Shown here piece after piece: positions 25,215 to 63,642 of a DNA stretch of 64,000 nucleotides. This stretch comes from Cenococcum geophilum 1.58. Its lineage: Eukaryota > Ascomycota > Dothideomycetes > Gloniales > Gloniaceae. The position numbers and the translations under genes were made by a program. A model generated the notes under the pieces. The model was not told where the DNA came from. It made no database searches and saw only the letters and a program-made list of their open reading frames with translations. The stretch covers positions 5,060,130 through 5,124,129 of the forward strand of contig KV748177.1 of NCBI GenBank assembly GCA_001692895.1, written 5' to 3'. Within the stretch, counting starts at the first letter, position 1. Each line of letters opens with the position of its first letter.

Positions 25215-28200
25215 TTTTGCGAAAGCCTCTATTAAAGTGTACTAACGGCCTCTTTCGCGTCGGAATACTTGGGATAGAGTAGTTATACTTATAATAAAAG
25301 ACTTCCTTAGGGTTAGAATGGCTAGGTTTGCTAAAGTCGGCATTAAGTCTCTATCGCTTAATAAACTAAGTGATTAAATTGGGAAAGCTACTAATCTTCC
25401 GGCGGTATAACTGATTTAACTATAAGGATATAGTTACTTTTTGGCCAAGGTAATAGACGGGGAATTTAACGGCCTTATTATAGATTCTATAATCTATATA
25501 TAGATTACCCTTATTTAGATTACCTAAGTTAGTATTTTAATTAGTTAAGAACTGGGTAGACGGGAATTTTTATGCTAAATCGCAGACTAGCGCTTAGGCA
25601 TTTAGACTCTAACAATATATAGATCTACAATATTTATACTAACGCCCTTAAAAGCTTAGCATCTCGCTTAATTTAAAGAAGAAAGAGGCCGACTGTAGTG
25701 CTTATTTAATAGCTAGAAGGATGTGTTGTTATAACTAAAGATATAGATGCGTTTCCCTTTAAAGATCTGCCATCTTACCTATCTCGTCTAGTGTGGGCTA
25801 GTATTTAAAGGGTATGTTAATCCGAAAGTAGCTTCCTAGAGCTTCCTTATCCACTAGTAGTGACTCGAGTCGATTTAAATACTTAATGTGGTTATTTTAA
25901 GTTACTAGTATAGTTCTAAACGACCTTAGGAGCTGAGGTATAGAACTATTTTAAAAACTATATTATGTAGACGGGGCTTTAGGGGAACTAGGCTGTTAAG
26001 CAAACCCTAAACCAATAGATATAGTCAGATTAGGGTCCGCGTTAAAGGCAATACGACTCTCCTAATAGATTGGATCTATAGGGTTGTTATACTTTCTAAT
26101 ACCCCCATCTTAAATGAAACCAATAGTAGGGATAAACTTGGCTGGAAAGATACTAGATAAATTTGTTAGAACTTTAACAGAGTAAGTAAGAGTATATTAA
26201 ATATACGTAGGTGTAGTAGATATAGCTTATGCACTATAAATTGTTAGTCTATATATATAAATAAGATAATTAAAACTTACGCTTACTATGTTAATACTTT
26301 ATTATAAGGATTAGTCGATCTAACGTGCTTATAACCTAGCTATATATTAGGATAGAGTTTAAATAGCTTAGGTTAAATTTACTGCAATCTTTTCGACGTT
26401 CTAATACGCTATTATAATTCGATAATATGTATAGCGCGCCTTTGGATATTATTATGGCTATTATAGCAACTTTCGTACTAGACGTCCTAAACTTTACTAT
26501 ATTAAACAGCCGGTTATTTATTCCAAATGCATCTTTAAAATAGAACTTAAGTTTAGCAACCTTAGAATGGCTTTTAGTGAGCTAAGAATCTAAAAACGAA
26601 ATCATATAAAAGCACAGTAAAAGCCTAGCAAGACGCTGTATAGCGAAAACTCGTTCAGCCAGCGTTTTAAACATAAAAATGCAATTTTAGATGCTTTGTT
26701 ATATCTAGAAAAGCTAAAGAACAGTAAGGCCTCCTATAGAAGTTAGTTTATTCTATATTATTGTATAATTAAACTTTACCTAAACTAGTACCTAGAGCGA
26801 AGTCGAAATCATCTTAAAGGGGATATAGGAGGTCCCAAACTTGCTCTAGATTTCTTAGTATTAGTAGTAATAGCTCTCCTTAGACGCCGCCTCCGTTAAT
26901 CGCTAGTAAACGAGTACTAGCAGTTAGTAGAAGGAGCTTTACTCCTAGCGGCCCTTTAGATTAATATAATATACACTTAGAGACTTTAAAGTAATATTTA
27001 ATGCCTTACATCGGCGTGCCGTATTTATAGACGTAAATATTACACATTAAATGTCTATAAATAAGTGTATGTTCTGGTTTTTTATAAAGGCAGAATAGGT
27101 AAGTTCTATTTAACTTTAGTCGGGGAATGCTCTGTTTAAGTTCCTATAGATTCTGCTAGTATAGCTAGAAAGAAGGGATATTATCTATATCTAAATTAGA
27201 TAGTATAGTTATGAGATTATCCTTTATTAAGCGACACTAGTTATAAGCTAATAGGTGCTAAAGATAATGCTATTTAAGATATACTGCTTAGCAGTAATCG
27301 TAATAGAGAGTTCGGAAAAGGGCTTTAGGATAAAAACCTTATATATTTAATAACTAGCAGGAATTAAGGGTTTTAAAATCTTATAATGTATTTTAGGGGG
27401 AGAACTATCTATAAGAATAGCTAAGGCAATATATATAGCGGCGTTATTAAGGGAGACTTTATACTAGTAACAGAGTTATAGGAATAAGCCTAGGTGGGCG
27501 GAAAACTAATTATTAATGTCATTTCCTTCCCTAGACGTATGGAAGAAACTAAAAGGTAGACTTGTAGTTGTAGTGAAATGAATTAACGCTTTATGGAAAA
27601 ATGCTTAAAGGTAAGTTGCGGAGAATAGTGCCTGCTTAGTAATTTTTGCTCGTTAAGTATAGTTAGCCTCTTGTAGTAGAGCATCTTTAAGTAAAAAGTA
27701 GTGTATAGTTGGTAATACTTCTATAGCATCTAGTAAGGCTATAATTGTTACGCTAGAGAAGGATTTTAATACGTCTAGTAGGCTCTTAATAAAGTTTATA
27801 GAGTTGACTATTTATATAACGATAATAATAATATATAGTCGACTTATTACCGATTCCTGGCCTCGTTCTGCCCATCTATAAAGAAGATTTAAAACCTCTT
27901 TTAAACTTAAGAAATCCTTTATAAAAAGGCAAAAGACGTTAGTAAAGGGGAGAAGTAATAGTAAGTAGATCCTATTAACTACATCTCTAGTCTTAGGCTT
28001 AGGATATTAGTTGCTAACCTAGTTAAGCCTATACCGCTTAGTCTTATAATAGCAGTCTGCCGTTTTACTAAGTTTAATAGAAAGGTTTTCTAGATTAGCC
28101 TTAGTGAAGAGCATTGGATTTTCAGCGCCTGCGGTAGTTAGGTTAATATTTAGCCTAATTATACCTTAAACGCTACGCCGTTTGTGGTTAATCGCGGGAA

Positions 28201-28260
28201 AGAGAGCTCTTAGTGCTTGTTTTTTATTCTTCTTTCTAATAAAAAGGAGTAAAGATAAAT
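25215..28260 (-). pseudogene. Patatin-like phospholipase (PLP) relic, nearly full length
   Basis: About 1000 codons can be followed on the minus strand, with frame changes. The N-terminal fungal PLP region (ENPMLFTKANLENLSIKLS, RIYLLLLLPFTNVFCLFI, LLYRWAERGQESVISRLYI) is followed by the patatin domain: RLLAINGGGV*GE (the GGGxxG oxyanion loop), DDFDFALGTSLG (nucleophile region, where families have GTSSG), and F**DGG-type IQDGGIRKYNNPID with an intact catalytic Asp context. Next come LTISIGLGFA and the C-terminal YRRKISSFPNLIT signature. These enzymes release fatty acids from phospholipids and, in fungi, mediate heterokaryon incompatibility and cell death. Interruptions are mainly TAA/TAG. It lies just downstream of DUF3723 on the same strand. 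Confidence 0.9.
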
Positions 28261-29039
28261 ACTAAGTGTCTGCGTGTGTTATATCGGCTATAAGTTTTTA
28301 AAGTCGTCCCTTATAGGTTATTGACTACTTATTATAATCCCTATAGAGTTTTAACTACTTATTATGCGGATAGGTAATTATATTGGCAGAAACGGGTTCT
28401 AGGACGAAAGCTAATCTTTAGGCTAAATGGAATTTTTCTATTTTATATTGCTGCGTGTGTCTTTAGTTACTCTTTTCTAATAGCATAATTAATTAGCCGG
28501 CCACTACCTTTCTACTACTAACCTACCTAGCTATATCCCCGGACTATAATAAAGAGGATTAAAATTTTAATACAATACTTGCTAAGCTTAAATTCTCTAT
28601 ATATTGTATAAAATACTTTATAAGGCCTTATCCGCCATAAACTTATATAAAGAGGTGTGCGTTCTTAAGACGATTAAGGAAGAAGAATTAGAATCGTGTA
28701 ATTTTGGTTAATTGGCTAATTATAGATCCTAATCCTTATATCTAGCTGGGTAGGGAGTAGAGCTATAGACCCCTTTTACTAAATAGCCGTAGCAGTTGTT
28801 AAAAGTTTAACAGAGCGACGCTATAAGGTCTACTAATTGGAAGATTAGCAAATATAAACTAGTAGCAAAGACAATATAAGTGTGGAGTTATAGTAAACTT
28901 CTAAGAAGATAGTAATGTTAGTAAACCTATTATGCTTACGCCTCTATCCTAATATGATACTTAAGCCGACGTTGTATGTTCTTTAATCCCTTTAGGTTAA
29001 TAATTAGATAAAATTAAGCGCTTATACTAAAATCCTTGA
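28261..29039. other. Intergenic degraded DNA between two minus-strand relics
   Basis: It separates the DUF3723 and PLP relics. A minus frame reads for a while with many Gln-type stops (VARGKPTFISIKKYYII, VSIIGLLTLLSS) but matches no family. It may be the untranslated or poorly conserved tail of the DUF3723 gene or the PLP upstream region. Confidence 0.4.
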
Positions 29040-31842
29040 CTTAAATTTCTAGTAATATAATATTTCTTTATAGATATAAAAGTCGGCTTTCCCCTCGCTA
29101 CATCCTAATTCGAGAAATTCGCACTTACTAAATTTCGTCCATATCTTTGTTAGACGGGCGAAGTTTGGGCCCAGTTTGCGTTTTAGGGGGTAGCGTAGGC
29201 TAGATTTCTTATTAAATAAGTCTTACGCTTTTTATAGAATTGTTAGGAGTTAGTAGCTAGTCCTTTAATGCTTTTTATTTTATAGCCTTACTACCGTAAA
29301 ATAGATCTATATATTGAGAAAAAGGCTTTTTAAGAAACCGTATATCTAGTAACTTAGATCCTTTATCTAGAATAAAAATAACCTACGGAAAATTCGTGTT
29401 TGTTAAATTAGCTCTATTATAGATATTTATAATATTTATTAACTATAGAGAGTTTGTAATAACGTATCCGAATTTCTAAGGCGCTCTAATAAAGTTATTG
29501 TTAAAATATCCGTCTATAATTTCGGAAGCTATATTTTTTATAGCAAAGCTATCGTTTCCTATCCTGCTATATTTTAAGGTTATAATTTAAAAGAAAGCAA
29601 CCTAATTTATAATCTTGTATTTATTAGATAGAGATTTAATAGTAAAAAGGGCGCTTTAAGTAGTTGTTATAGTAGTTTTAGGAGGTTGCTAGACTATAAG
29701 GTAACCCATTTAACTTTACTTATTGCTTCCCTGCTGCTGCTCGTAGCTCTACTACTGCTTGTAGCTCTGCTGCTGCTCGTGGCTCTACTGCTGCTCGTGG
29801 CTTTACTGCTACTTGTGGCTCTGCTACTGCTCGTGGCTCTACTACTACTCGTAGCTTTGCTGCTGCTCGTGGCTCTACTACTGCTTATAGCTCTACTGCT
29901 GCTTATAACTTTACTGCTGCTTATAGCCCTGCTGCTGCTTATAGCTAGCTAAATAAGTACTCTTGGGCACTTCCGATACAGGTGCTTGTATCTCTTTTAT
30001 CTAAAGGTCGGAATCGTTTGTATCCCTCTACCTAAAAAAGCAGAAGAAAATAAATCGTTTAACTGCGAATAATGTAAGCATAGCTTTTGGACTAACTATA
30101 TTATCTATACTATATAATATAGGTAGGAATAAAAGATTCTTATTAGAGATATAGGAAGCCTATAGCGGTTTACCGCATCTATAATTAATAAGCTTACTAC
30201 TAAAATTAACGCTTAGAGTAAGAGTGGGGTTTAGGAGTATTTGCTGCTTAAATTTGGCATAAAGCACTTCTAGTTAGCGGTCTACCTCTAATTTAAAATC
30301 CTCGTCACTAATTTTATATAATTCTTTAGGTCGCTAATTATAAAGGGAAACCCGGATTTCTGCTTTATTAGGGTCTTCCCCTAAAAGTTCCTTAATAGGC
30401 TTTAACTTAAACCCGAGATTACTAGCTAGCCTCGTGAATTTATACTAAGCCCTCTTTTTAGCGGAGTTATTGCTCTTTTTACTACTTTTAATGTTATCCT
30501 TCTTACTTCTTTTGTTTACTAATGGAGATATATCGGTTATACTAGGAAAATATCGTAGTGAGTATAAGTAGAGTTGATGATAGCGAATAAGTAATCCTAG
30601 GGTGTTTGGTATATAACGCTCTCTATTTAAACTAAATTAAACTAAATAATAACCGTCGTGCTCTAATAACCCTATATAGCAATGCGTAATTATCTCTCTT
30701 ATAGAATCTTTATGGTTTAGCGGTAGTATTCCCCTTAAGATTATTATTACGGGTTTGAGATACTTTAAATCTTTAAAGAATGTTTTAAATATTAGGATTA
30801 TGCCCGGTACCTTAAGTAACTAAATTAGGACCTTTAGGCGTAGCAAATTTGGTATATTAGAAAAAACCTAACCGGTATTTACTAATATTATTACTAGATT
30901 TTTGTTATTAGAACACGCTAATGGTGTAAGGGATTATAGGCTCCGGACCGTACCCCCGTTAAAAAAAGGCAGTATTAACTTATTATTGTTGGTAATAAAC
31001 TTTTAAACTTGCTGTATATGCCTAATATAGTAGCAGATTTCCTATTATTTGTAAGTAATATACTAAAAAATCTTAATTACAGGAAGTAAACCTCTAGGCA
31101 CTTCTAACTCTATATTATAGGAAAACATCTAAGTTTAAGGTCCCCCTATAACCCTATATACGGCAATAGCGTATTTATTATATAGCCTAACTATTTATAT
31201 TTAGGTTGTTGGATCCAGTTTATAACTTTACCCTACTTATTGTCACTTAGTTAAAGGAGCCATCTTTATTTACCTAACGTATCCCTATGAGATTAATAGA
31301 AGCGGACTAGTCGGTATACTTCGCTGTTAGTAGCTTTTTAAGCGTATAAATACCTTTCTTAAATATATGTCCCTGTTCGCTTAGATATACCTATCCCTAT
31401 TAGATTAATTAACCGTAAATAAAGCTATAAACAAACCTAATAAATATAGGTCAGTACACTATTATCTATCCTCTAAGAAGAGTATATTCTAAGCTGCTAT
31501 AATACAATACCTGCCATGCAAGTAAAGTAAAGACGTGTTGTTCTATATAGGGAGCCTCGGTAGTTCTTAGTGAAGTAGTTTTAGTAGGTGTTTTCTAGTA
31601 CTAGATTTCTAGACCAATATATCGAATTTCGCAGGGTTAATAATTATAGGGATGTAATTCCCTAGATTAAGTCGAGCGCAATCCTATTTAAAAACTTTTT
31701 CTAAATAAGAGACATGGTTTAGATCAAGATACTCTTTCTTAGGCCTATGAAATTTTAGATACTATAGAGCAATCTTTACTATACTAAGAAAGTGTTTCTA
31801 TAGGTCTTTAGAAATAGCTTTATCCTATAATATATTTGCCAT
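29040..31842 (-). pseudogene. DUF3723 family protein relic
   Basis: It starts at an ATG at 31842 (minus) and can be followed for about 930 codons with some frame changes. N-terminal landmarks are FHRPKKEYLDLNHVSYLEKV, LNLGNYIPIIINPAKFDIL and the family signature YLHGRYCIIAA*NIL (HGRHRIxAA in relatives, His to Tyr here). The middle has IILIFKTFFKDLKYLKPVI, then GLLIRYHQLYLYSLRYFPS and TRLASNLGFKLKPIKELL, and LTLFAVKRFIFFCFF matches the xSFFVRRS-xFxxFFG block. A Gln-rich hexapeptide array (entry below) and a C-terminal region follow. Function unknown. DUF3723 genes are among the most regular cargo of Starship elements. The 17-bp minisatellite begins about 45 bp upstream of the start codon. Confidence 0.9.
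29731..29945 (-). repeat. 18-bp minisatellite encoding a Gln-rich hexapeptide array
   Basis: About a dozen 18-bp units lie inside the DUF3723 relic. In its frame they read S-Y/H-E/K-Q-Q-Q, with some third Gln codons turned to TAG. On the plus strand the same DNA gives an open LLLLVA repeat (29686-29952), which is a shadow. Many CAG/CTG steps survive, unlike in the flanks, so the array has partly escaped RIP or has been homogenised since. Confidence 0.9.
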
Positions 31843-31887
31843 AATTATAGGTTATAGAGGAATTAGCTAGTATTAAATCTCTTTATA

Positions 31888-32985
31888 CCTTCTAGCTAGT
31901 TTATAGGATTACCTAGCTTATACGATTTACTAGTAGTTATTTTTAACTTTATAAAGGCAGCAAAACAGGCTTATACTTAGACCCTACTATTACCTAGCTT
32001 ATATAATCGCCTAGCTTACGCAATTACCTAGCTTATAGAATTGACTAGCTTGCAGCTAAGCGTTAATAAAGGGCACTAGATTATAATTACCTAGCTCTTA
32101 CGATCTCCTACGAGCGCCTAGCTCCTATAAGCACTTAGCTTATACGACCACCTAGTTTATAGGATTGGCTAGCTCCTACAAGCACCTAGCTTATATAATC
32201 GCCTAGCTTGTAGGATCGGCTGGCTCCTACGAGCACCTAGTTCGCATAATTACCTAGCTTATATAATTACCTAGCTTATAGGATTACCTAGCTCGCAAGA
32301 TTACCTAGCTCGTGGAATTACCTAGCTTGTAAAATTACCTAGCTTGTAAAATTACCTAGCTTATAGAATTACCTAGCTTATAAGATTACTTAGCTTATAG
32401 AATTACCTAGCTTATAAGATTACTTAGCTTATAGAATTACCTAGCTCGCAAGATCCCCTAGCTCGTAAGATTACTTAGCTTATAAAATTACCTAGCTTAT
32501 AAGATTTCCTAGCTTATAAGATTACCTAGCTTATAAGATCCCCTAGCTTGCAAAATTACCTAGCTTATAAGATTACCTAGCTTATAGGATTACCTAGCTC
32601 CTACGAGTATCTAGCTCCTATGAGCATTTAGCTTATACAATTACCTAGCTCGTATAATTACCTAGCTTACACAATTACCCAGCTTATAAGATTGCTTAGC
32701 TCGTAGGATTGAAGCCACAAAGTTGCTAAACCTATTAATATTTTATTTGTACGCTAGGCGTTAATTAGAAGGCGCTAGGTTAGATTACCCTACTTATACA
32801 ATTACCTAGCTTATAGGATCCCCTAGCTTTTATAAGCGCCTAGCTTATAGGACTAAAGCTATAGCCGCTAAATCTGTTAAAATCCTAGCTATATGTTTAG
32901 AGGGCGCTACGCTTATCTACCTAGCTCGTACGATTACCTAGTTTGCATAATTATCTAGCTTATACGACCACCTAGCGTATCTCTT
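31888..32985. repeat. 17-bp minisatellite of about 1.1 kb with interspersed spacers
   Basis: The unit CCTAGCTTATAAGATTA and variants (CTCGTAGGATT, CTCCTACGAGCG, TTGTAAAATTA) are repeated dozens of times. The dense block is about 31990-32712 and a second block about 32785-32985. Two unrelated inserts of 60-80 bp that resemble each other (from 32712 and from about 32855, both containing GGCGCTA) break the array. Seventeen is not a multiple of three and stops occur in all frames, so it is not coding. It sits immediately upstream of the DUF3723 start. Confidence 0.95.
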
Positions 32986-33539
32986 TTTATAATTTACTAT
33001 AAATTCCACGTTCTTCTAAAAAAAATTCTATACGCTCCTAGGTAGAATGCCTTAAATCAATTGAAGTTTAATTCTAGAGCTGCTTAAGGCGATTTATATA
33101 TTATCGACCTAAATCGGACTTGTTTTACTACCGTCTTACTTTAGTATAATATAACTATCTAGTTCGACTTAGGAGTCTCTAAGTATGTAAATATATATAA
33201 TAATTAGTATTAATCCATATAAGGTATAGCAGGCTTTATAAGATAATTTAAATATTATCCCGTGCAACTATATATAAAAACTTAGAAAAGAATATACCCA
33301 AGCTCTAATACTTTAATATTAAATAGAAGATTAAGAATAAGAACTCTATCGAATTATAAGAGGCTCTACACTCCTATAATATACACTAGGATCTATATTA
33401 AAACACCCCTAATCTATCATTAATTAAATAGTAATTAACCCTCAGCCGACATTTAATCTGTGACTTAACTATAGTAGTTTGACCGCTAGCATACCACAGT
33501 AGCTTTAGGGATGCTTAAGGCCCTATAACTACTACCCTC
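32986..33539. other. Degraded DNA, nothing assigned
   Basis: Between the minisatellite and the end of the next minus-strand relic I see no repeat and no family. Minus-frame pieces near 33300-33540 may be its tail. Confidence 0.4.
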
Positions 33540-34905
33540 TATAATACTTAGCTTGGATATAGGAGTCTACAATACCGAGCTTAGGTAAGATGCCATATTT
33601 ATTAAAACAGTTAGTGTAGAATTGCTAAAGGAGATATTAGCTGTTGTATATATATCCCAAATTTCTAGTATTCTACTATATAGCCTTAATATCTACCCCC
33701 TAATGGTTTTCTAGGAGCATCTGATATAATCCTAGTAGAGGATTAAGCCAGGTCTCCTTCTGCCACTAAGCTATAACCTACAAATTATCCCAGAACTGCT
33801 TTAGTATTTTAGCCGATTATCCCTCTCTTTACGGAAATAGTATAAATAGGGATTTATTATCCCCTATTTTATAAAGTTCTAGCGCCGCCTAATTCTCCAC
33901 ATATTAATATCCTCAAACCTTATACTTCTCTTTAGCCGCTTAGACATGTAGGGTCTCTACTCTACGTAACTAAGTATATGCCTCCTTCCGCTAGGAGGGT
34001 TTAGGGTATAAATATACCGCTCTAAGCCCAGAAATAAAACATTAAACTTAACTTAAATAGAATTGGAGGATATTATAGAAAGGAGTTAACTAAGGGATGG
34101 CTATATTAAATATTAATTACACACAAACCCTACTCTTTGCGCTCTTTCCTTTAATTACCTTAAGTGTTTCGCTGCCTCGGTCGTATTTATCTAGCCTATT
34201 ATAATTATTTTCGTGCTAAAAGGAAAAGGTTAGTAACGTCCCTAGATGCTATAATCCCTTCCTGTTATGTAAGACCTAGATCGTCTTATGTAATCCTTAT
34301 AGGTTATAGTTATATCAATAATAGTAAAGATTGGCGAAGAACTGCCGTAACTAAATATAAGCGTTATGCTCCTTATCTTCCGTAGTCTTATAGACAGGAT
34401 TAGGTAAGTCCATTTTATCTATATCTCTATCCTAATAATTATTCTAACTAGATATATCTTGGTTAAATAAGAACGCGGTTCCGTTAAAGGTATACCTAGC
34501 GGATATATCTAGGCCCTCGCTATATTCTATAAAATAAACCTTTTCTTAAGGATACTTTTCCATTAGGGTATTAAATTCTTTAGACTTAGATATGTATTAT
34601 AACACTTTTATATTTATCTTAAACTTTTAAAAGCTTAATTTTCGGACTAGTGACTATATTGGAGAGGTCCACTGTATACTATAGCTTAACTTTATCTTAC
34701 TAAGCATTCTAAAAATGCCTTTAATATCTACTTGGATATAGAAGTTAAAATTAAAGTATAGCTTAGCAGAGCCAGGTATAAAGTAGTTTGTAGCGCGAGA
34801 ACCTAATATATACGCGTTGCTCTTGGCTATTGCGTTAAGAAGGCCCTTAGGATTAGTAAAGTGGGGTCTTAAGTAACGTATAGGGTTCTTTCTCTCCCTA
34901 TACAC
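33540..34905 (-). pseudogene. Fungal nucleotidyltransferase-like protein relic
   Basis: From an ATG at 34905 the frame is stop-free for 83 codons and then continues through TAG/TAA codons. NAYILGSRATNYFIPGSAK with FNFNFYI matches the GSRALxxFxPGS and SDWDFYV motifs of an uncharacterised, expanded fungal family whose N-terminus resembles nucleotidyltransferases. The aspartates of the SDWDF motif read Asn here. The C-terminal part (CFISGLRAVYLYPKPS, EKYKV*GY*YVE and NKSLFILF) matches its conserved VQCFISG, EKYK-RGF and QSLFVDYG blocks. Function unknown. The frame changes around 34300. Confidence 0.65.
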
Positions 34906-35339
34906 CTTTAACGCGAGTGTTAGTCTATTTACTGTGCCGCCCTTACCTTTTATATATAACGTAAGCGTGAGATTCTTATAGTTTGAGATACTTATAACCT
35001 TATAGAGTTTATAGAAGCCGTTTAAGTATAACGTATTAATGTTTGTGGGGGGAGTATAATGACGTCGTAAGATTAAGCGGAGGATTGAAGGAAGAGAAAG
35101 ACTTAATAGCTAATAGCGAAATATTGATATTAAGACTTTTATTATGTTTGTTCGATCTCAAACAAGATTAAAGAAGTTGTTAAATAGTATTATTTTCTTA
35201 ATCCTATAAATTATATTAGAATTAAATATATAAAAAAGGAATGTAGTATTAGGATTGAAAATCCTATACAGGTAATATAATTAAATCTTTAATATTTATC
35301 TAAATATATCTAAGGCACTAGAAACTAATAACACTATTA

Positions 35340-35410
35340 CTATATATATTTAACTACCTTATCTACTTTACCTACCTCACCCACCTTATCTGCCTTATCT
35401 GCCTTATCTG
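35340..35410 (+). repeat. 9-bp tandem array (CTTATCTGC/CTTATCTAC)
   Basis: About seven units of CCTTATCTGC-like sequence in the opposite orientation to the GGATTAGGT arrays. It lies just beyond the 3' end of the retroelement relic. Confidence 0.85.
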
Positions 35411-35454
35411 CCTCGCGCCCTAGCATAGTTATATTACCCCCCTCTTTTAAAAAA

Positions 35455-37849: not shown

Positions 37850-37869
37850 NTNATACTTNTTATTANAGG

Positions 37870-39745
37870 AAATAATAGTACGGAAAGAAGTAACTAGCGT
37901 ACTAGGTTTATCTAAGATCTATAAGCTTGTCCAAGCTCTAGAGTAGCTCCTACCTATAGCTATACTTAATAGAATAATTTCCGAAGTTAATATAGGAAAG
38001 ATACTAAGAAGCTTAGCACTTAAGGACCCTAAATCTATTATTGAGGTAGCTAGTATAAAATTTGTCGTGCTGCTCTAGTCTATTTAGTCCTGTCTAGTTA
38101 AACCTGGTAGTAAAACCGCAGCTATTTCTTTGGCTAGAATTGCGGAACTTAAGGAAATTAAGGAACTAGGAGCGATATCTAAAGTGCTTAAAAATCATCT
38201 AAGTGACTATAGCGTTGTTAGGGAAGTTGGAATTATCCGTATAAGCGCATATATAGTAGCTGTAACTTTTATAATATAAAAAGAAGAGATAGAGGTAGAA
38301 ATAGAGGCTGTGGGATCTAGAGATATGTATAGAAGTCTAATAGCAGAGCTTATAGGATTTGAAATAGATATGGTGTTAGTTAAAACTAAAATGGATATAG
38401 TGCTGGTAAGAATTAAGATAGATATAATGCTATTAGAAACTAAGGAAGATGTAACGCTGGTAGGAATTAAAATGGATATAGTGCTAGTGGGAACTGAGGT
38501 AGATATGGTGCTGGTAGAAGCTAAAATAAATATAGTGCTAGTAAGAACCGAGATAGTTTTGGTGCTGATAGGAACTAAAATAGGTGTGTTATAAGTTAGA
38601 ACTAAGATGGCTATAGTACTGGCGAGAACTAAAATAGATGCGTAGTTTATAGAATTTGAGATAGATATAGTATAGCTGAATATAAAAGTACTGCTAGCTA
38701 TTATAAGGCCCTCCCCGTTTATAGGCCGTGTTAATAAAAAAGAGAGCAGCTGTATGGATTTGGAAAGGGTAGTTGAAATACTTAAATATCTGTTTAAACT
38801 TGGGATTAAACTTATAAACTGGGAAGCTCTACTAAGGGAATCTAGAGAAGTGTATATTAACCTAGATATCTAGCTTAAATCTAATATAAGCGGCAGTACC
38901 GTAGAGCGCAATAGTCCGTTAAAGGGTTATGTAATAGTTTTAACCGTCCCTAGGGAGTTAACGGATCTTAAAGTTAGATCCGTTGTGGTGCTTATAAGAA
39001 AGATCTAGGGATTGGCTTTAGTATAAGCTATAGTAGCGCTTTAAAGTTCTATAGGGCTATTACTCTTTAAGGAAATCTAAAGACTATTTAAAGTTTAAAC
39101 ACCATTTAAAATTTCTATAGTAGTTATAGTTGCCCCTACGGAATTAATAGATATTAAAGTTAAGTTATTCCTAGTCCTTATAAGAGAGAGCTGGAATAAG
39201 GCTTTAGTATAAGTTATACTAAGGCTTTAAGAGAGGATAAAGCTAGTGCCCTTTAAGATAATTAAAAAGCTTTCTAAACGTAATAATCCGTTCGGATTTG
39301 CTATAGTCGTTACCGTCTGTTAGAGGTTAGTGGGTGTTAGAGTTATATCTGTCCTAGTGCCCGTAAGAGAAAGCTAAGATTCGATTTTAATATAAATTGT
39401 AATACTACTTTAAGGCCCTATAAGACTAGTAGCTATAAAGAGAATTAAATAGCTTTTTAAAAGTAGAGGTCTATATATATTTATAATCGTTATTACTGCT
39501 AATAGTAAGGTAGTAGATATTAAACTTAAGTCTATCCTAGTACTTATGCGAGAATAATAGGGTCCAATATTAGAAGAGGTTGTAATGGTTTAAGGCTCTA
39601 TAAGGCTAGTGCTCTTAAAAAGGATAGAAGAGCTTTAAAAATCTATAGGACTGTCTGATAAGCTAATAATAGTGCGAACGCCATCTTTGGAAGTTAACTT
39701 GTTAGTCTAAGTTTTTTAGATTATAGTCTATGCCGAAAAATAAGC
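37870..39745 (-). pseudogene. Ser/Thr-rich surface-protein-like relic with two kinds of internal repeat
   Basis: On the minus strand one frame runs through four similar modules of about 57-60 residues (39690-38930). Each has a pattern like SLIEP*TITTSSN or SPIEL*SATIAYTKANP, then TRTDLTL-type strands and a TVTTIANPNG-type end. Stops are TAA/TAG. The modules are followed by a 27-bp array read as TSTISILVP-like nonapeptides, then a Ser/Leu-rich tail (SSLISLSSAILAKEIAAVLL). The composition and tandem modules fit a fungal cell-surface or adhesin-like protein. No signal peptide or GPI site could be placed. The plus-strand open frame through the array is a shadow. Confidence 0.65.
38364..38600 (-). 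repeat. 27-bp tandem array inside the Ser/Thr-rich relic
   Basis: About eight units of the type GATATAGTGCTGGTAAGAAT with TAAAATG (plus strand). They encode a nonapeptide repeat on either strand. The minus reading (TSTISI) fits the frame and composition of the surrounding relic. Confidence 0.85.
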
Positions 39746-40179
39746 AGCGAAGTCGCTAGGTAGCGTCAAAGACGTTCTTTTTATAGTAGTATTTTACCAC
39801 CTAGGAGCCTATGCAATTATTATAACCGCGGATAACGTTGCTTTAACGCTATTATAATCTAAAAAGAAGTAAGGGATAAGAAGAAGCAAAAGACCTACGA
39901 TAAGATTTGTTACTATCTTTATACTTATTAATATAAGGAAAGTCGTAGGTGCATTACTTGTTTTCCGAGTGTTAATACCGCTTGCTAAATAATATTAGTG
40001 TGTACCTTATTGTTACCCTTAATGGCAGGTATAAAGTTAAGGGATTTACTAAATAGGAAAGGGTTTACCGACTTTACTATCGATATAATCGCCTATTACA
40101 TATTTAGTTATTATAATACCACTCCATAACTATTAACTCGAGACGGGTGTTAACTACTTTAATACCTCCCTTTATTAGA

Positions 40180-40562
40180 CATAACCGATAGAAGCTAATA
40201 ATAATAGCAAGACTATAGAAGAAAATAAGACTTAGGGAGAAGGGACTTGCTTATCTGATTTAAATAAGTGTATTAGCAGGGAGGCGATCCGCCGACGGAG
40301 AGAAACACTTTTTAAAAAGGCGGACGAGTTAGGAAAAATAAGTGATGCGTATATCTACCTTCTTGTATATAATGGGGGGAGATACTACTTATATTTATTT
40401 AGAGATAAGCCTTTCTAGCCGCCGTCTAAAGAGCATATTGTATACCTTACTTACCCTCTTAATATAGTATATACTAATAAAATGCAGAATCAAAGCTTCC
40501 TAGTACCTAAAAAAAGAACTCCGGCTGATTTTAGGCTAAAGTATAGGGGAATAATGAAATAA
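40180..40562 (+). pseudogene. MADS-box (SRF-type) protein relic
   Basis: The plus frame ending at a TAA (40560) reads SREAIRRRRETLFKKADELG, KISDAYIYLLVYNGGRYYL and PF*PPSKEHIVYL. This is the pattern of the short MADS-box proteins that are expanded in fungi (RRxTLxKKAxEL, then a DAxVYLLVxxNGRYY strand and WPPSxEQI). One or two TAG codons replace Trp. A basic tail (VPKKRTPADFRLKYRG) follows. MADS proteins bind CArG-like DNA. Length about 125 codons. It lies 690 bp before the TPR relic on the same strand. Confidence 0.85.
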
Positions 40563-41250
40563 ATTTGCAGATACATTGTATGGCTAGACTAGTTAAAATA
40601 AATATTATTTCTATACTTGGATTAATTTATTTAATTTCTTCTATTCGCCATTTTATATCCTTATAACCTTAAAATGCAGACTGCTAAATTTTATAAATAC
40701 TGCGGTAGGTTTACTAATTTATTTATAAGAGCCCTGCGTGTTTAAACACAAGATTATCCCTAGTATTAGTTAAGCTAGGTATACTTAAGGTAGTACGCGA
40801 GCTTTACCGGGGAGCTAACCCCGGCTAGGCTATAGCCGAAATTAATACTATTAATATATTGTGTCTGCCGCCTATAAAGGCTTTAAACCCTAAGGATCTA
40901 TTAATTTGCTTTATATCTAGCCAATTTAAATATATCTTTACCCCTAACGTATAACTCTTATACTTAAGTTTTATTAACGCTTAAGTGTTCTCTTTAAGGC
41001 CCTTTTATCTATTTTTAGGCCGTTTTTTATTTTAATATCTATAAAGGCCTCCAATTTCGACTAGATACCTAAAAAGTATCTTATCCAAGATGTTGCTGGA
41101 ATTGGCACTAAAGAATACTGCTATATATACTTTGGGAAGTTACCTAGCGGAGATAATATTATCTGGCTATAGTGTTGTATTAACTGGTTATATAAAGCTT
41201 ACTTACCAAAGGTATGCTAGTGTTAACATTATAGAGTTTATAAAAAAGAT

Positions 41251-41949
41251 ATGGCGGAGTATAATAGAGTAAAAGAAAAGATAGAACTTATTCCTCTTCT
41301 AGTAGAGATATATTTTAAAACTGGCCGAATTATAGAGGCTGAAAAGTACTAGGTGCGGCTAGTAGAGATAATTAGGAAACTAAAAGGGCCGGAATATAGG
41401 GATACTTTAAAAAGTAAAATCTACTTAGCTTATATCTACGTTAGGTAAAAACGGCTAACCAATGCTAAAGAGCTACTGCTATAGTTACTAGAGACTAGTA
41501 ATAGGGTATTAGGCTAATACTATTTATAGATATTAAGTATAATGGCCGTCTTAGCAGAAGTCTATTATTATTAAAAACGGTAAACGGAAGCCGATAAGCT
41601 GGAAACTCAAGTAATAGAGATAAGAAAGAGAATTCTAGGCCTATAGTATCCCGAGACTTTAAAAAGTATAAAAGAGCTAAGTTTTAAATACTGTATAAAG
41701 AACCGACTTCTAGAAGCGGAGGAGCTGTAGAAATAAATAGTTAAGATAAAGAGAGAGATTTTTAGTAATAACTATCTAGATACCACTAGCAGCATAAGTA
41801 ATTTAGCATTTATATTCTATGAGTAAGGACGAAAGGAGGAGGCTTAAAAGTTAAACATAGAGGTAATAAAGACGAGAATTGATGTATAGGGCCTGGTGCA
41901 CCTAGATACGCTTATAAGTATAGCTAGACTTCTAGCTACTAGTTACTAA
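41251..41949 (+). pseudogene. Tetratricopeptide (kinesin-light-chain-like) repeat relic
   Basis: From an ATG at 41251 a single frame runs to a TAA at 41947 through about 13 TAA/TAG codons. It shows four or five 42-residue TPR units: TGRIIEAEKY*VRLVEIIRK, TNAKELLL*LLETSNRVLG, TEADKLETQVIEIRKRILGL with YPETLKSIKELS, NRLLEAEEL*K*IVKIKREI, and GRKEEA*KLNIEVIKTRI with HLDTLISIARLLA. This is the TPR_12 type found at the C-terminus of fungal NLR and patatin proteins. No NB-ARC or NACHT P-loop was seen upstream, so the owner is unknown. Confidence 0.85.
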
Positions 41950-42164
41950 GACAGCTAATTTCAAGTTAAATAGTGAAGAAAGGAAAGTACCTAAGGTATA
42001 TAGACTTGTTTAATTATTTTATATTAACTAATTTCTTCTCCGTCTTATTATTAACGTAAGGAAATTGTTTTTTTCCCTTCCTATTCCTCTATAAAACGTA
42101 TTTAAGTTACTTAACTACAAATTTAACACTTAAGATCTAGTCACGATTGAAAAATTATATTTTA

Positions 42165-42590
42165 TTATATTTTTACTTTACGGTACGCTGGATGTAAAGC
42201 TTTTAATTTATAAGGGAGTACTATAGTGCCGCCCTTATCTAAACTAGATGATCTTTTTCTGCTAATATAGATAAATAAGGCGCCTAGGAGCGTAAGTGCT
42301 ACTATAACGCTAACGACTATTCCTACTACTGCTGCACTGGAAAGGTCTTAGGAAGGTAAAGGCAGAACTAAAGTTATAGACAATAAGGCGCTATTAGTTA
42401 TCGCGGTTGACGGGGAGGTTAACGTAGGCGCCTAAGTTAAGGTGATTACGCTTAAGGCTTTAGCTGGGAATAGTTCGCTAGGGTTTAGCATAAAGGTTGA
42501 ATTTTTAGTATATACCCTCTATATGGCGATAGTTTTGGTCTTATTCTGCATCTACTTTTAGTAGGCTAATCTAAGATAAGATGTATATGG
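42165..42590 (-). pseudogene. Single-pass membrane protein relic (Ser/Thr-rich ectodomain and tail)
   Basis: The minus frame ends at a TAA (42165-42167). A Ser/Thr/Pro-rich part (TLTSPSTAITNSALLSITL) precedes a classic transmembrane helix (AAVVGIVVSVIVALTLLGAL, then FIY) and a basic stop-transfer (SRKRSSSLDKGG), with a short cytoplasmic tail (TIVLPYKLKALHPAYRK). The layout is that of fungal WSC/MID2-like or similar surface proteins, but the extracellular domain upstream of about 42590 was not recognisable. Only two or three stops interrupt 130 codons. Confidence 0.65.
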
Positions 42591-43116
42591 CTTTTAAAAT
42601 AGTAATAGCAATAACAATAAAGTAAAAAAGGAGGGGGGGAAATAGTAAATAATTTATCCCCTTATAGGATTTATTACTCCTATTATTCCTTATTAAATGT
42701 ATAATCTAGAAGCTAAATAGTAGAAGAATATTAGCGCGGTATCATTAATGGTGAGGTTCTATGACGGCGGCTATTAAAATATAAATTACTGATTAAATAA
42801 AGCGGATATGTTAAAAATGGAAAAAAGATACCTTTACCTCGTTGGATACTATATCTATTAGATGAAATCTAGAGAAGAAGCCAGTTTTTTGCGGCCCCGT
42901 TATCTTATAAGGAACATACGGGTCTTTTTTATATTAGTTTAGTAACGAAGGTATAGAGGGAACTAATATAATTTAGACTTATATTTATACTTAGCGCGAA
43001 CTACGGAATAGTTAGGCGGGAAGAATTAGAAATAAATAATATCTTCTATATTTGCCGTTATAGTGTCCAGAATAAATCGCTAAGTCAGCTTCCTAACCGT
43101 AACGATGTAGAGTTTT

Positions 43117-43424
43117 ATGTTATTACCATTAGCAGTAGTTATAGAAGGGCTCGCTAAACTCGGTGTTGAAGAAGGTAAAATTAAGATTAAAGGTGGAATG
43201 GAAATTAAAGAATATCTTTCTTTAGAGGAGCTTATACCCGAAACCTATGCGATAAATTAGATAAGGGTAAGAAAGGTCGTTAAAGCCTTAGGGGTTATTT
43301 AAAACATAATAAATAAAATAAAAATTAGGGTGGAAAAAAAGAAGCATTAGATTAATTTAAAACTTAAGGATAGTAGGGTATAATTTAGCTTTAGCTCGGA
43401 GTTGCTAAAGTCTACCCAATAATA
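43117..43424 (+). pseudogene. Unassigned small protein relic
   Basis: From an ATG at 43117 the frame MLLPLAVVIEGLAKLGVEEG, KIKIKGGMEIKEYLSLEEL has no stop for 47 codons and then three TAG/TAA, up to a TAA near 43422. The tail is very basic (KIKIRVEKKKH). It ends exactly where a small inverted-repeat element begins (43418), so the element may have truncated it. Family unknown. Confidence 0.5.
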
Positions 43425-43629
43425 TTAACGGTTAGGTTAGGTTAAACCAATAAGAAAAGGCTAATTGGTTAAAATTCTTAACTAGTTTACTAGCTTATAT
43501 AGGCTTAGCATTTACTTAATTTAGTAATTTTATATTAGTTTAACCGGTTTAACTGGTTAAATTACTAATTTAATTGGTTTAGTTAAGGGCTAAAATTTAC
43601 AACCTAACTAACCTACTTGTTAATATTAC
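43418..43629. mobile_element. MITE-like element with inverted ends
   Basis: The left end AATAATATTAACGGTTAGGTTAGGTT mirrors the right end, which in reverse complement reads AGTAATATTAAC, then GTAGGTTAGTTAGGTT. The inner parts (GGCTAATTGGTTAAAATTC against TTTAATTGGTTTAGTTAAGG) are also partly mirrored. It is about 210 bp long and non-coding. No firm target-site duplication was seen. Confidence 0.65.
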
Positions 43630-43846
43630 TTAGTCTACCTTGGTCATTCTTTACCAATTTATTATGGTTCTTTAGTATTTAATAAACTAAGCCTTATTAA
43701 GTACGCCTTGCCATAGAGGCATTAATGGAAAAAGAACTCGTTTCCTAGCGGTACTGTCCCACCGTCTTAAAATCTATATTAATTAGTGTGAGGCGTAATA
43801 GGGAAGCGTAGGTATTACTACCTAGAAGGATTGAAAGGACTAGGTG

Positions 43847-43922
43847 GCTTAGATAGCTTAGGCGGATTAGGTAAATTAGGTAGATTAAGTAGATTAGGTA
43901 GATTAGGTGGATTAAGTAAGTT
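43847..43922 (+). repeat. 9-bp tandem array (GGATTAGGT type)
   Basis: About eight units such as GGATTAGGT, AGATTAGGT and AGATTAAGT. Same unit as at 22016-22070. Confidence 0.9.
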
Positions 43923-44361
43923 AGTTTAATACGCTAAAATAACTAGCTGTAAAGAATACGCTAAACTAAAACATAGTTTATATTAAGGCACTATAAATAA
44001 AGACCTATAGAGATTTCCTATGCTTTTTGTAAATCGTGGCAATGCCCTATAGGAATTTATATTTATAAAGAATCTCGTATTTAATAGGAGGTAAAATTTT
44101 AAATGTGAGGCTTGTGATATAAATAATACTAAAGAATAGTTTTGTTTATAGTATAGTTATTTTATAAATAAAGAAGAGAAAGTATAATAAAGGAGAGCTA
44201 TAAAACAAATAAAATTTAAATAAGAAAACGCCCCCCTTTTAAGTTTCTTTTTTTGTCTTTTGTTTTTAAACTATATAAAAAATAAATAAAGAACTATTGG
44301 GGGAAAATTAGATAGCTATTGCTATATACCTTGCCTTTTTTATCTTCTATACGTCAATCTA

Positions 44362-45645
44362 TTATACCCTACTTATAGTGTTAAGTTCGTTAAAACTATT
44401 AACCCCGGCTAGCTCGCAGTAGAGTTCCTTAAAATCTTTAAGAATAGCGTTTAATATAGCCATCTTAGCTGCCCCTATAGCTAGAGTAGGAGTTTTAGTT
44501 AGAGCTAGAGTTCTAGTTAGAGCTAGAGTTTTAGTCGGAGCCGAAGTGCCTAAAATTTCGCGGAACTGCTAAGACGTTGGGTAGAGAATACTAGGTATAG
44601 GAGATCTGTTTATAGCCGGGCGTATATTAGCTAAGTACTACTTAAGTCTTTTTTTAAATTGCTAAGCTATATTATAAATGTTTTTATTAGCTAGTTTGGT
44701 GCCCTACTTATTTTAAAGGGTTCCTCTAGTCTCCTAACACCGTTTTAGTTTATTGTTTGTATTCTAGTTAACTAGAATATATATAGTAGGAAAACGTTTT
44801 ACTAGCCTCTCCGCTTTATCCTAATAAATTAAATTTAAATCTTCTCTAGGGTTTTCCGGGTACTGGGATTTCTACGTAACTACGCGAAGGTAAAAAATAT
44901 GTTTATTAGTGTATAGAAATTTACCATCTAGTCTTCTTATATCCCTAAGTCTGTAGATAGGGTTAGTATATTTTTTCTTAGGAGGAAATGTATAATTATC
45001 CTCTACTCCCCCTCTTATAATTCTATGGATAGATGCATTACGCGGACCGTAGCAGTTAATGACTTCCTTTTAATTACCTACCTATGCAATAGTGGTCCTA
45101 TAAGGAGTATTATAATTAGGTTACATATTCGCGGCGATATAAAGTAGCTCCCTATAGATTTTATCTTATAACTTGCTTTTTATAGTAGGCTCTAACCCTA
45201 TATACTTTTATTCCAAAGACTCTTATTTTATAGGCGTTTATTTTACGCCCTAGGGGTCTGCATTCTGTAGCTCTTATAAAACAAAAAGCGGCTCTCTCTC
45301 TTTATTAGGCTTTATGGACTCTATAGGCCTTTTATTTACGTCCTTAGAGCCTACGCCGTTTTTACCATCTTCGTTATCTAATTCTATTTGGTTATCCCGT
45401 ATAAACTCCTATAACTCTTTATCTTAATTGGCGATTTCTTAGGCCAATTCTTTAGTTTTTTTTTAATCCTCTTCACTCTGCTCGCTACTCTCTTCTCCAC
45501 TATTCTTCTTCTCTATAGCCGCTAATTAAAGTCTTAAAGCTTTAATTTCATTTTACTACTAAATAACCTTTTGCTGCTGAATAACCTTGGCTTTTCCTTC
45601 CTTTAGTTAGGAGCGAGTTCCTTTCTTAGCTTTGGCTTTTGGCAT
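44362..45645 (-). pseudogene. Unassigned coiled-coil / Gln-Lys-Glu-rich protein relic, 428 codons
   Basis: From an ATG at 45645 (minus) one uninterrupted frame runs 428 codons to 44362, and every stop is TAA/TAG. The N-terminus is a long charged helix (MPKAKAKKGTRS, AIEKKNSGEESSEQSEED). The middle has EPTIKSKL*DKIYRELLY, VINCYGPRNASIHRIIRGG and FPPKKKYTNPIYRLRDIRRL. The C-terminal third has a short Thr/Leu repeat (TKTLALTRTLALTKTPTL, an 18-bp array at 44480-44540). The absence of indels makes it one of the best preserved frames of the window. Family not recognised. It could be an ORF of a mobile element. Confidence 0.6.
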
Positions 45646-45699
45646 TTTTAAGAAAGAGGGCCTATTACTAAATGTAGCCTTCTTACTAATGTATTTATT

Positions 45700-46920
45700 A
45701 GATTTGGCCGCAAAGTCACCCTAATATATAGATAGTCCTCGCAATGTTAACATTTAGACTATTCTATACTTGCTAGCTACTATTTTGTACTAGGCTTATA
45801 GAAAAGGAAGAATTGGTTAGGGATTACTTTTATAGTGACCTCTTATTTAGGAGGGCCTAGATATTAGTTATTCGCGGTAAATCTAAACTCTACTTAGAAC
45901 ATCTCCGGACTAAGGCAAATTAGCCACTCTCTATTTCTGCTTATCCTTTAGTATAAATATAACTACCGCATTATATCTATTTAATCTAAATATATAAGCA
46001 TTTCTTGGAATTTTTGCTGTAATGCTATTTAAATTAATTACCTTTTTATGTATAGTTGTTGTGTAAGTGACCTATAATTGTTTAGATTCCCAGTTAATAA
46101 AGTAAGTAGCGTTTTTAGAATTTTTAAAAAGTCCTACTAAATATAACTAGGACTGTATTTAAAACTTTACTTTACTATATAACCTGGACACAGCTCGCCT
46201 CCAAAACGGGAGTTCTCTATTTGGACATAACTATTACCCTTAGTGGTAATGGCTACTTAGTTATAGGTACTATAAATATGCCTAGTGTTGTTATCTTACC
46301 TGAACCAAAATGGCGTAATATAACCCCTTTGGAAATTCCGTTAGGATATCTATAAATAACTAGGGAATTTACTCTAAGTTTATCTCCCTTATCTATAGGC
46401 TTGGCATCGGCCACTTACCCAGCTTTTTAATCTTTAGTATTAATTTCTATGCGCCGTAAGCTGCACTTTTTAATATTTGCCGTTATTATAGTAATAGGTC
46501 TGGTTGTTATATACGGTCGCTAGATATTTTTCCTATATTACTACTTAGTTGCTAAATACCGTGTGGATTTGTAGTTGTATATATAAGTAGAAAGTTTATA
46601 GGTGGATATTACTAAGATTAAGGCTTAGGTGTAAGAGTTAATCTAAAGAATAAAGCTTAGGCTCGCCCTTATAGGAACTTAGGCTACGCTGAAAACGTAT
46701 ATCTTTATAGAATGCTTCTTAAATTACATTTATAGAGTGAATTTAGAGACTGTTATTTGTATAATCTATTATACTCCACTAATAAAGGCATTAGTATAAT
46801 ATATTATTTATTAAGATCTACTAATAACAGAAATACTATAATTTATTATAACCTACCTGTAACCCGCTTATATTATATAGTAGTAAAAGGCGTTTCATTC
46901 TAGAGGGTGTCTTTTTATTA
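45700..46920. other. Degraded interval with an ambiguous open stretch
   Basis: At 46180-46600 the plus strand reads about 140 codons with four stops and a hydrophobic segment (HFLIFAVIIVIGLVVIYG), but the minus strand of the same DNA is also fairly open (PNGISKGVILRHFGSGKI). I cannot choose a strand or a family. Confidence 0.35.
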
Positions 46921-46924
46921 GCGA

Positions 46925-47445
46925 CTTAGTTAATTAAGGTATAAGTACGGTAAGAGGGACGCGTAAGCCTATACGATTGGTAGTCTATTAACGAAAATAT
47001 TAAGTTAAGGACTAGAAGAAGGTTAAGGAAAGGATACGTTTATATATATAGCGCTAAGGCTCCAGCTAAGCCCCTAACTAGAGTCCGTATTAGTGCCGTA
47101 GTTGTTCCGTAATAGTGCCGTAACACTCTTTTTAGGGGTTGCCTAAGCGGGTGATAAAGTAGATAAAGTGATTAAACCGGATGGATGAGGTAAATAAGAT
47201 GGGTAAGTATAATGGGCTTATATAAATGCTTCTAAACTAAAGCTTATAGATTGCTACTATATAAGAATACTAAGCTAAGGAGAAAAAGAAGATTGGTAGA
47301 GACTGGTAAGATATAAAGGGGTTGTTAAGGCGCTAGTAGTAAGTGAGCTAATAGCGACTTGGTAGAATTTGGTAGAATTTGGCAGATTGCCTAGAAAATG
47401 GCAAATTGCGGCAAATTGCCTAGGAAACGGCAATATAGCAGGTAA
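46925..47445 (-). repeat. Composite of dispersed repeats B and A, with a 9-bp array
   Basis: Repeat B (46925-47030, like 19120-19230) is followed by GATAAAGTAGATAAAGTGATTAA units (about 47155-47210). A repeat A copy in reverse orientation follows at 47210-47410 (GCTTATAGATTGCTACTATA, ACTAAGCTAAGGAGAAA). Then come TTGGTAGAATTTGGTAGAAT and GGCAAATTGCGGCAAATTGCC short duplications. No coding signal. Confidence 0.7.
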
Positions 47446-47869
47446 TAAGCTCCAGCACCGTCATAGTGAGATAGGTAAGTTAAATCATTTTAATCCCTCC
47501 TTCGCTTAGTTGTATCCTTAGGTGCGTTAGTATTGGTATTAATACTTTAACACATCTTAAGTAGAATATAAATTAACTATTAGGATTCTTGTTTTCTAGA
47601 GCGTTTATAGATTCCTACTTATATAATAGTATATAGATACAGCAGCGGTACATTTTAGAACGGACGCTATCCCTACCCGATTTCTCTTATCTAAGCTATA
47701 AATACTATAGCCATTTCTATAAAAATAAAGATAATAGTCATAAGAGCCTAATAAAGAAATCCTCTAAGCACTTACTATATCCCTATTATTTATATCTATC
47801 TACTAAGACTCTGTAGTACTTGCTATTAATTTACTTAGGGAGCCCTTTATAAGAGAAATCGAGCTATTT

Positions 47870-49895
47870 TAAATAGCTATTTGGAGGCTGAAATTCTAAG
47901 TTGACTAGGCGTAAATCCTAATAAAGGTTATAAGAAACGTAATTCCGGATTTTATCCCAAATATCTATTCTCGCACTAACTGGATATAAAATTAGCAGCT
48001 TTAGTATAGGTTTAACGTAGACTTGCTACCTAATATTACTGTTTTTCCATTAAGTACTGCTAATTTCTCTTGCAGAACATTTGCAATATTTAGCCTCCCT
48101 TGTATCGCCTTGATTTTCTTACTATATTCTTTTTTAGGTTCCTCTATCTAAGGAAGATATATTTTAACCTTAATATTTTATTAATTTACTTAGGTTTGCT
48201 TTTATATATATAGAGTGCTACTTATATATTCCTTAGTATTATCTATTAGTAATTAATCTATAAATGGTTTTACCTATAATTACTGACCTAGTTTAATAGT
48301 ATTAGCATTTAATCTAGTCTAATTTAAGGTAAATGTACTATCTGCGTCCAGCTTCTATATAAGTACTATCCGCCTTGTTTTAACTTTGTAACGTCTATAG
48401 CCTTGGATAAGTTTATTGATATATACTAGGTAGCTAGTAACTCCAATACTAGTTGCGAATATTAGTACTGTTCTAAAATTGCTAAAATTATATCTAACCC
48501 TATATGGCCCGTTAATAAATGCCGATATTAAAGTATTTATATAACTCGTAAGCTTTCTAGTAAACCCTCGCCGGGGTTTAATAAGTAAATGTATTTTTAA
48601 TCAATCTGAGTTACTATCCCAGCCTGATATTACAAAAGGGTGGCGTTAAAAGATAGACTAGAAGCTAGCTTTAGAAATAGAAAGATAAATATATTAACTA
48701 GCTTTTACTTTTTAGGGTTTAGGTATATAAACTAAGACGTAAAGGGCTCTACTTTCTTATATTACTTCTGCTTTGGTTTAAGATCTATTCTAAGAAAAGT
48801 TTAGGTATAAGCAGAATATCTATTTAAAGGTTGTGAAGAAAGCCCATGCAGATACCCTAATAAGTAGATATATTTCTGCTATCGGGTTTCCCTTAATATA
48901 AAGCTAAAGAGCGAAGATAAGGATTTTAGAGAGAAGTATATGGAATTAAAAGAAGAATTTATAAATAGCCCTCTGAATAAAACCAGTAGAAAGAAGGCAT
49001 ATTAATGCTAATGATAAGCCTCCCTAGCATTAAAGTTAATTTGCTTTTGGGTAATAGTTTAAAGGCGGGCTAAATATATAATAAGCCCCCAAATTCCTAA
49101 TAGATTTAGTGTAAATGGTTATTAATTTATAAATGGAGTAATTATATAGACTAATCCTTATAGAAAAGTGACTATTCCTATATATATATAGATTTTATAT
49201 TACGTTTACACGGAAACGCTAAGGTAATTGGTAATTATATTAAGCGATTCCGCTATAACCGGGATTATATTAGCAAGGGATATTATGCCTATATGTGTTC
49301 CGATCTAAGCAAAGGATCTAACTCTAATGGTTATATATAAAACGTTGGCAATGACGTATAAGGTGACGCTTAAAAGAAAAATTCGGGTTGGCCTCTTAGG
49401 TATAGTATTTCCTCGCCAAATATAAGGATAAACAAGATATTTTAAAAGGAAGAAGGTAGATAAGGTATAGAGAAAACGTATAATATAAGAGATTATGCGG
49501 TATAGCAGTAGAAGCGTAAAGCCGCCCACTAATACAGCCGTATATTATGTGGTAACGTTTATTATAAGTTGTATTTTTTTACCTTTATGTGGCGCGGAGT
49601 AAAACTTAAATGTAGCATTACTTAATATAGCATTAAAGACATTATAAGCTAAATCTGAAGGCAACGAAGTGTAAGAGATAATGCCCGTAATTCCCTAAGG
49701 GCAGTAGTATCTGGTTGCCTTAGCTTATACCTAGGTGTAGGGTGTAAAGCCGTCCTAGGCTAGGTAGGTAAAAATTTATAAAGAAGTAAGTGCCTAATCC
49801 TAGCATTAACCCTAAAAATTATGGTAGATAAAAAGAAAAGAGTAGTCTAGGAATTGTTCCGTAAACGTTAGAATAATTTCCTTTAGAGAGCCCAT
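47870..49895 (-). pseudogene. Ferric reductase (FRE) relic, full length
   Basis: From an ATG at 49895 (minus) one frame continues past 49305, and later parts need small frame changes; total about 675 codons. Transmembrane helices (GGFTLLLLYRIISYIIRFLY; RIFLLSVTLYVIANVLYI) lead into the ferric-reductase core (VRSF, IGTHIGIISLANIIPVIAE, YKIYIYIGIVTFL*GLVYII, where haem-ligand His codons now read Tyr). The FAD domain (YIYLSISKASF*SIF*RHPF) and the NAD domain (GPYRVRYNFSNFRTVLIFAT, then SIGVTSYL) follow, with the tail EEPKKEYSKKIKAI. The family moves electrons from NADPH across the membrane to Fe(III). FRE genes are recurrent Starship cargo. Confidence 0.9.
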
Positions 49896-63637: not shown

Positions 63638-63642
63638 AAAAA

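Follow-up and report, generated by a model that had tools for sequence, protein, structure and literature searches.

This analysis concerns a stretch of 64,000 nucleotides from Cenococcum geophilum 1.58 (contig KV748177.1, here C2, positions C2:5060130-5124129), called the window throughout, and the giant transposon in which it appears to lie. The host assembly comprises 177,193,698 bases in 162 contigs (C3, C5 and so on below), and a window position equals the contig position minus 5060129. Starships are giant fungal transposons that carry a DUF3435 tyrosine recombinase (YR), the captain; they usually occur in one or a few copies per genome and are known to carry adaptive genes from one fungus to another. 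A reading of the letters of the window alone (the sequence-only reading) had proposed a fossil Starship, and had suggested looking for a DUF3435 recombinase at one end and for TTAC-like target sites. We cut the six reading frames of the window into 144 pieces, with X at stop codons, scanned these against Pfam and placed the matches by targeted scans. For the extension of the locus, 100 kb of DNA was added on each side. The features on which the argument turns are the following.

1-64000, plus strand: inner part of the element, which continues beyond the window on both sides (-3297 to 140645 in window positions); based on the shared ends of six copies and the profile of GC content and repeat-induced point mutation (RIP)
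26645-26936, minus strand: patatin-like phospholipase (PLP) remnant, nucleophile-elbow region, in two frames; based on a genome homologue on C83 and a patatin consensus
29734-29939, minus strand: array of 18-bp units that code S(Y/H)(E/K)QQQ, on the downstream side of DUF3723 and sharing its frame
30034-31415, minus strand: DUF3723, profile positions 82-507, in two apparent exons; PF12520 at 6.3e-58 and 3.1e-7, genome match C2:5090163-5091170
41299-41940, plus strand: TPR array; TPR_12 1.3e-17, TPR_10 1.9e-16
48349-49005, minus strand: ferric reductase (FRE) remnant; FAD_binding_8 at 48529-48732 (minus strand, 4.4e-6), and a ferric reductase from C33 at 48349-48594 (2.3e-8) with a weak colinear match at 48625-49005 (0.021)
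63640-63816, plus strand: marginal TPR stretch; TPR_12, E 0.045-0.055

Judged by sequence similarity, the identities of DUF3723, FRE and the TPR array at 41 kb are firm, and the minus-strand DUF3723 and FRE of the sequence-only reading were recovered. Two other FRE queries gave one match at 0.0097 and none in the window. The frame of DUF3723 changes near profile position 180, which looks like an intron because a gap of about 44 bp recurs at other loci of the genome (for example in two C75 matches); a frameshift was rejected, as an intron fits. Of the other DUF3723 loci, the first eight retrieved share no DNA similarity with the window over 100 bases and therefore belong to other subfamilies. 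In the neighbouring S(Y/H)(E/K)QQQ array, 13 of the 36 Q codons are now stops (TAA or TAG), and the alternation of H with Y and of E with K is as expected from CpA-to-TpA and TpG-to-TpA changes. A long decayed 17-bp tandem array also lies beside DUF3723 (31893-32980).

The patatin remnant is short but supported by sequence matches, with a recognisable part of about 0.3 kb on the minus strand out of the 25.2-28.3 kb span first assigned to PLP. A patatin-like fragment of C83 has its top window target at 26769-26936 (minus strand, 3.9e-6), this query itself scoring 26.7 bits, slightly below the Pfam cut-off of 27.7. A patatin consensus gave colinear matches at 26909-26775 and 26743-26645, whose pair score none of 150 dinucleotide shuffles attained. 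Pfam returned no patatin match in the window, and a PDB sequence search with the three minus frames of 25.0-28.5 kb returned just a chance match (E 0.75). Since three stronger patatin queries of the same genome do not match the window, the remnant may be one particular patatin type. On C83, the patatin-like fragment (C83:621874-622005) lies 2.6 kb from a DUF3723 fragment (C83:624605-625159), the same neighbours as in the window.

As for the proposed NLR-type TPR arrays, repeats are present on the plus strand at 41.3 kb and marginally at 63.6 kb, but the NLR label is unproven on TPR alone because neither NACHT nor NB-ARC was matched in the window (Pfam on the 144 pieces, and a generic NACHT query). 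Three of the four members of the Starship accessory set (DUF3723, FRE, PLP and NLR) are therefore found here, the fourth being represented just by TPR without NACHT or NB-ARC.

Captain, ends and target site

The window itself contains no DUF3435 match, as the sequence-only reading had noted, and no transposase, integrase or reverse transcriptase domain (Pfam scan of the 144 pieces at E up to 2, a range partly filtered because HMMER discards most matches above E 0.1). The captain lies just outside. Its domain was found at C2:5058328-5059473 on the plus strand (window -1801 to -656), 0.66 kb left of window base 1; it begins 1.5 kb from the 5' end of the element and reads into it. The match is strong both with Pfam PF11917 (1.2e-32) and with a local HMM built from five captains of the genome (5.6e-210), for which the second-best match over the 264 kb reached only E 0.75. 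A cut-out window alone can thus miss a captain 0.7 kb past its edge. The position (plus strand, about 5,058,000, at the left edge of the block) had been forecast from the captain/DUF3723 spacing elsewhere before the search found the captain: at five DUF3723 loci, on C5, C16, C21, C35 and C62, a DUF3435 match lies at a distance of 30-40 kb and is oriented convergently.

The genome is very rich in DUF3435, with at least 165 match rows among the best 100 of 346 candidates, so that a separate small element of this kind could conceivably have landed once at the edge of a cargo block that was not its load. A single landing would not, however, account for the convergent arrangement of captain and DUF3723, 29.9-40.1 kb apart, in all six copies described below, in the other five of which the captain also stands on the same side and reads inwards; the 5' end and the captain moreover lie within the shared sequence, and we regard an edge landing as very improbable. 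DUF3723 was counted in at least 88 rows among the best 85 of 174 candidates, which we merged by hand into 64 loci. A DUF3435 row occurs within 60 kb at 18 of these 64 loci, whereas 2000 random placements gave 7.2 on average and 15 at most, a comparison that uses incomplete lists, includes the captain of the window itself and approximates contig extents from the rows. A second convergent arrangement of captain and DUF3723, spaced 10.8-11.2 kb apart, was seen twice on C5 and once each on C9, C45 and C52, and is probably another element family.

The decayed block around the window extends over about C2:5,057,000-5,200,500, with DNA of normal GC content on both sides; the sequence-only reading had confined it to 25 kb, whereas it measures 144 kb, fills the window and continues beyond it. 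At the left boundary, the alignment of four of the five retrieved copies with the C2 element begins at exactly C2:5056831/2. A search of the whole genome with the 5' end (all 23 candidates scored) found six copies at 90% or above, C2 included, with the same start base. At the right boundary, 13 of 16 long non-self matches end at query positions 496-500, corresponding to C2:~5200774 (best 40 of 340 candidates). The 5' terminus of all six full-length copies reads TTAC[C/T][A/G]GTATAACTCTATGT and the 3' terminus TTAC, so TTAC stands at both ends in 6/6 cases. Beyond the ends the flanks are unrelated among the six sites, with pairwise identities over the outer 60 bases of 0.23-0.37 (5') and 0.18-0.35 (3'). 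Because both ends are common to the copies, lie at TTAC and have unrelated bases beyond them, we set the limits of the element at C2:5056832-5200774 (143,943 bp, counting the TTAC of each end), a span that includes the entire window.

These ends also bear on whether a 143-kb block was multiplied by segmental duplication rather than transposition, as the large near-identical blocks on C2, C5, C16, C21, C35 and C62 could suggest. In all six, homology ends at an identical base on each side, at TTAC, next to flanks that are only 0.18-0.37 identical, and such an origin seems to us scarcely credible. When the flanks of C2 and C5 were joined, no long frame crossed the site (longest 61 and 73 aa), which is uninformative either way. 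Two related stretches of about 0.26 kb within the window, in direct orientation 62 kb apart (1011-1285 and 63439-63639, 69-75% identical), were considered as element ends and rejected, the true ends lying elsewhere. Near the 3' end, a repeat of about 100 bp (C2:5200229-5200330) that is 95-99% identical at many places of the genome has been inserted and is hardly mutated.

Six copies in one genome

In addition to the C2 element, full-length copies were found on C5, C16, C21, C35 and C62; the six amount to about 0.91 Mb or 0.5% of the genome. From match coordinates, the sizes of the other five are about 143.0 kb (C21), 143.1 kb (C62), 151.6 kb (C5), 153.7 kb (C35) and 173.6 kb (C16). The captain, PLP, DUF3723, MADS/TPR and FRE regions follow in the same order at the six sites; the last four of these and 4 kb from the right half are colinear in 5/5 of the other full copies, some of which have them split in two. 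The initial 6 kb of the window are matched throughout in C21, C35 and C62 and partly in C16 and C5. Partial relatives of the element are also present (C20, C3, C43, C94 and others). Near window position ~41995-42122, about 2.4 kb are extra in C16, C21, C35 and C62, C2 and C5 being without them. At C2:5157118-5157122, where the matches overlap by 5 bases, about 300 bp present in the five other copies are missing from C2, a segment that resembles a small insertion with target duplication.

Cargo families typical of Starships also occur outside them, and patatin and FRE relatives exist elsewhere in the same genome. Both facts would suit a decayed accessory or dispensable region in which genes of such families merely happen to lie together and no element exists. 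The exact shared TTAC ends, the captain close to one end and the six copies at unrelated sites speak so consistently against it that we give this explanation almost no weight. Other YR elements such as Cryptons resemble the element in their tyrosine recombinase and short or absent terminal repeats; they differ in being small and without such cargo. With its 5' captain reading inwards, TTAC at both ends, length of 144 kb and DUF3723, PLP and FRE cargo, the element is like Starships. It departs from the usual ones in its six full-length, near-identical copies in one genome and in the decay of captain and cargo.

RIP-type decay and age of the copies

RIP acts on duplicated DNA before meiosis. The proposal that the genes died by this type of mutation agrees well with the composition of the window, where GC content is 0.30-0.37 throughout, CpA and TpG are depleted (observed/expected 0.32 and 0.52), TpA is enriched (1.46), and only two stop-to-stop frames reach 120 aa (151 and 220 aa). 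In its CpA loss, TpA gain, GC near 0.33 and abrupt edges, the block is like the RIP-decayed AT-rich retrotransposon blocks of ascomycetes, but unlike these the window has no reverse transcriptase, integrase or transposase domain among its 144 pieces. A neighbouring RIP block (C2:5.004-5.032 Mb) has a composite index of 1.29-1.45, compared with 0.89-1.22 in the window.

The comparison between copies covered about the initial 3 kb (five copies), a cargo segment of 6.3 kb (one copy) and the termini. In the PLP-DUF3723 region, the alignment of C2 with C5 over 6,301 bases shows 538 transitions and 10 transversions, with 345 of the 538 transitions in CpA/TpG context. Within the initial 3 kb, five copies compared in all ten pairings show 243-300 transitions and 0-7 transversions; for C2 against the four others, 178-228 of 259-300 transitions fall in CpA/TpG context, while 0.38 of C/T sites precede A. 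Because the differences are nearly all transitions, the copies would have been almost identical when they were mutated, spreading first and undergoing RIP second. An ancient fossil was therefore rejected, the copies differing by just 0-10 transversions per comparison. On these counts the word fossil, used in the sequence-only reading, is apt for function and not for age, the copies being young in transversions though dead.

A single ancestral spread followed by slow decay through ordinary mutation, without RIP, would be expected to leave many transversions, whereas 0-10 are seen between copies against hundreds of transitions. What could be cited in its favour is a tandem duplication at 58.0-60.9 kb of the window, whose age shows in 214 transitions and 150 transversions over 1,095 bases, with differences even over codon positions and 7/8 indels a multiple of three. 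An old duplication can, however, predate the spread of the element; this one is presumably much older than that spread, and slow decay is in our view highly unlikely.

Several observations do not fit easily with a RIP-mutated Starship. The captain in C2 has 33 stops in 382 codons (19-25 stops in the corresponding stretches of the five other copies), and 193 of the 538 transitions between C2 and C5 fall outside CpA/TpG context. In whole-genome searches, the Pfam Patatin model matched none of the six copies (60 rows) and the Ferric_reduct model no element copy. An inverted TGTCCAGG near both ends is a weak match of 8 bases, a length reached in 21 of 5000 shuffles. Short terminal inverted repeats are not present in every Starship. 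The structure varies between copies, C5, C35 and C16 being 8-30 kb longer. In addition, the 3' terminal ~2.5 kb (C2:5197929-5200774) is 91-96% identical between C2 and C16 and 68-83% between C2 and the other four, a grouping that conflicts with the internal indels and makes one simple burst less likely; copies may have exchanged their 3' ends. Finally, all comparisons were made within one genome.

Taken together, the captain at one end, the TTAC ends in all six copies and a cargo that keeps its order at six sites whose flanks are unrelated bear out the Starship proposal. We conclude with high confidence that the window covers the left-middle portion of a Starship 143.9 kb long with a DUF3435 captain, integrating at TTAC, present in multiple copies and mutated by RIP. 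The captain would have carried the element to several places within this lineage at a time when its copies were still almost identical. RIP would then have detected these as repeats and struck both captain and cargo, so that no open captain is left in the copies that were read. The striking part is the copy number (six full-length copies, ~0.91 Mb) together with the uniform decay. On balance, we lean towards a Starship that behaved as an ordinary multi-copy transposon, reached at least six near-identical full-length copies and was then silenced by RIP across captain and cargo; copy number would accordingly be what keeps Starships rare in RIP-competent fungi. On this view the copies would also differ in a swapped 3' end, and the second captain-DUF3723 arrangement, with its near-constant spacing, suggests further bursts in this genome. 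Six exact, full-length, RIP-mutated insertions supply ends and target sites in replicate and document the changes gained between copies, and they therefore allow a direct test of whether RIP limits Starship proliferation and of how cargo and 3' ends are exchanged.

Other remnants and repeats

The Pfam scan and self-comparison placed the following additional features in the window.

5424-5689, plus strand: ankyrin-repeat remnant; Ank_2 6.4e-10, placed by local search
16246-16332, plus strand: possible DXD glycosyltransferase remnant, weak; Gly_transf_sug E 0.019, placed by a motif
22665-22976, plus strand: nucleoside 2-deoxyribosyltransferase-like domain, whole profile covered; PF15891 1.6e-17
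40263-40403, plus strand: MADS/SRF-like remnant; SRF-TF 3.8e-5, 23.5 bits against a cut-off of 26
49827-50084, plus strand: second MADS-like remnant, similar to 40257-40511; self-comparison 5.9e-6
51842-52207, plus strand: protein-kinase remnant; Pkinase 5.4e-6
56680-56961, minus strand: Bys1-family remnant; PF04681 1.3e-12
58039-59122, no strand given: first copy of the tandem duplication, no known domain, 67% identical to the second
59794-60866, no strand given: second copy of the tandem duplication

No tRNA was found in the window, and no Rfam match reached the gathering score. The right part of the element holds a second deoxyribosyltransferase-like domain (9.1e-18). One of the two long open frames, 151 aa at 34654-35109 (minus strand), has no Pfam match and contains a GSRA...PGS-like motif, which we take to be that of a common ascomycete family. 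A short dispersed repeat occurs in both orientations at four places (17027-17099, 47206-47467, 53876-54063 and 59501-59768). A palindromic repeat of 0.5 kb at 3239-3738, with 112-nt arms that are 90% complementary, has relatives in other copies and at C3:3534404-3536303.

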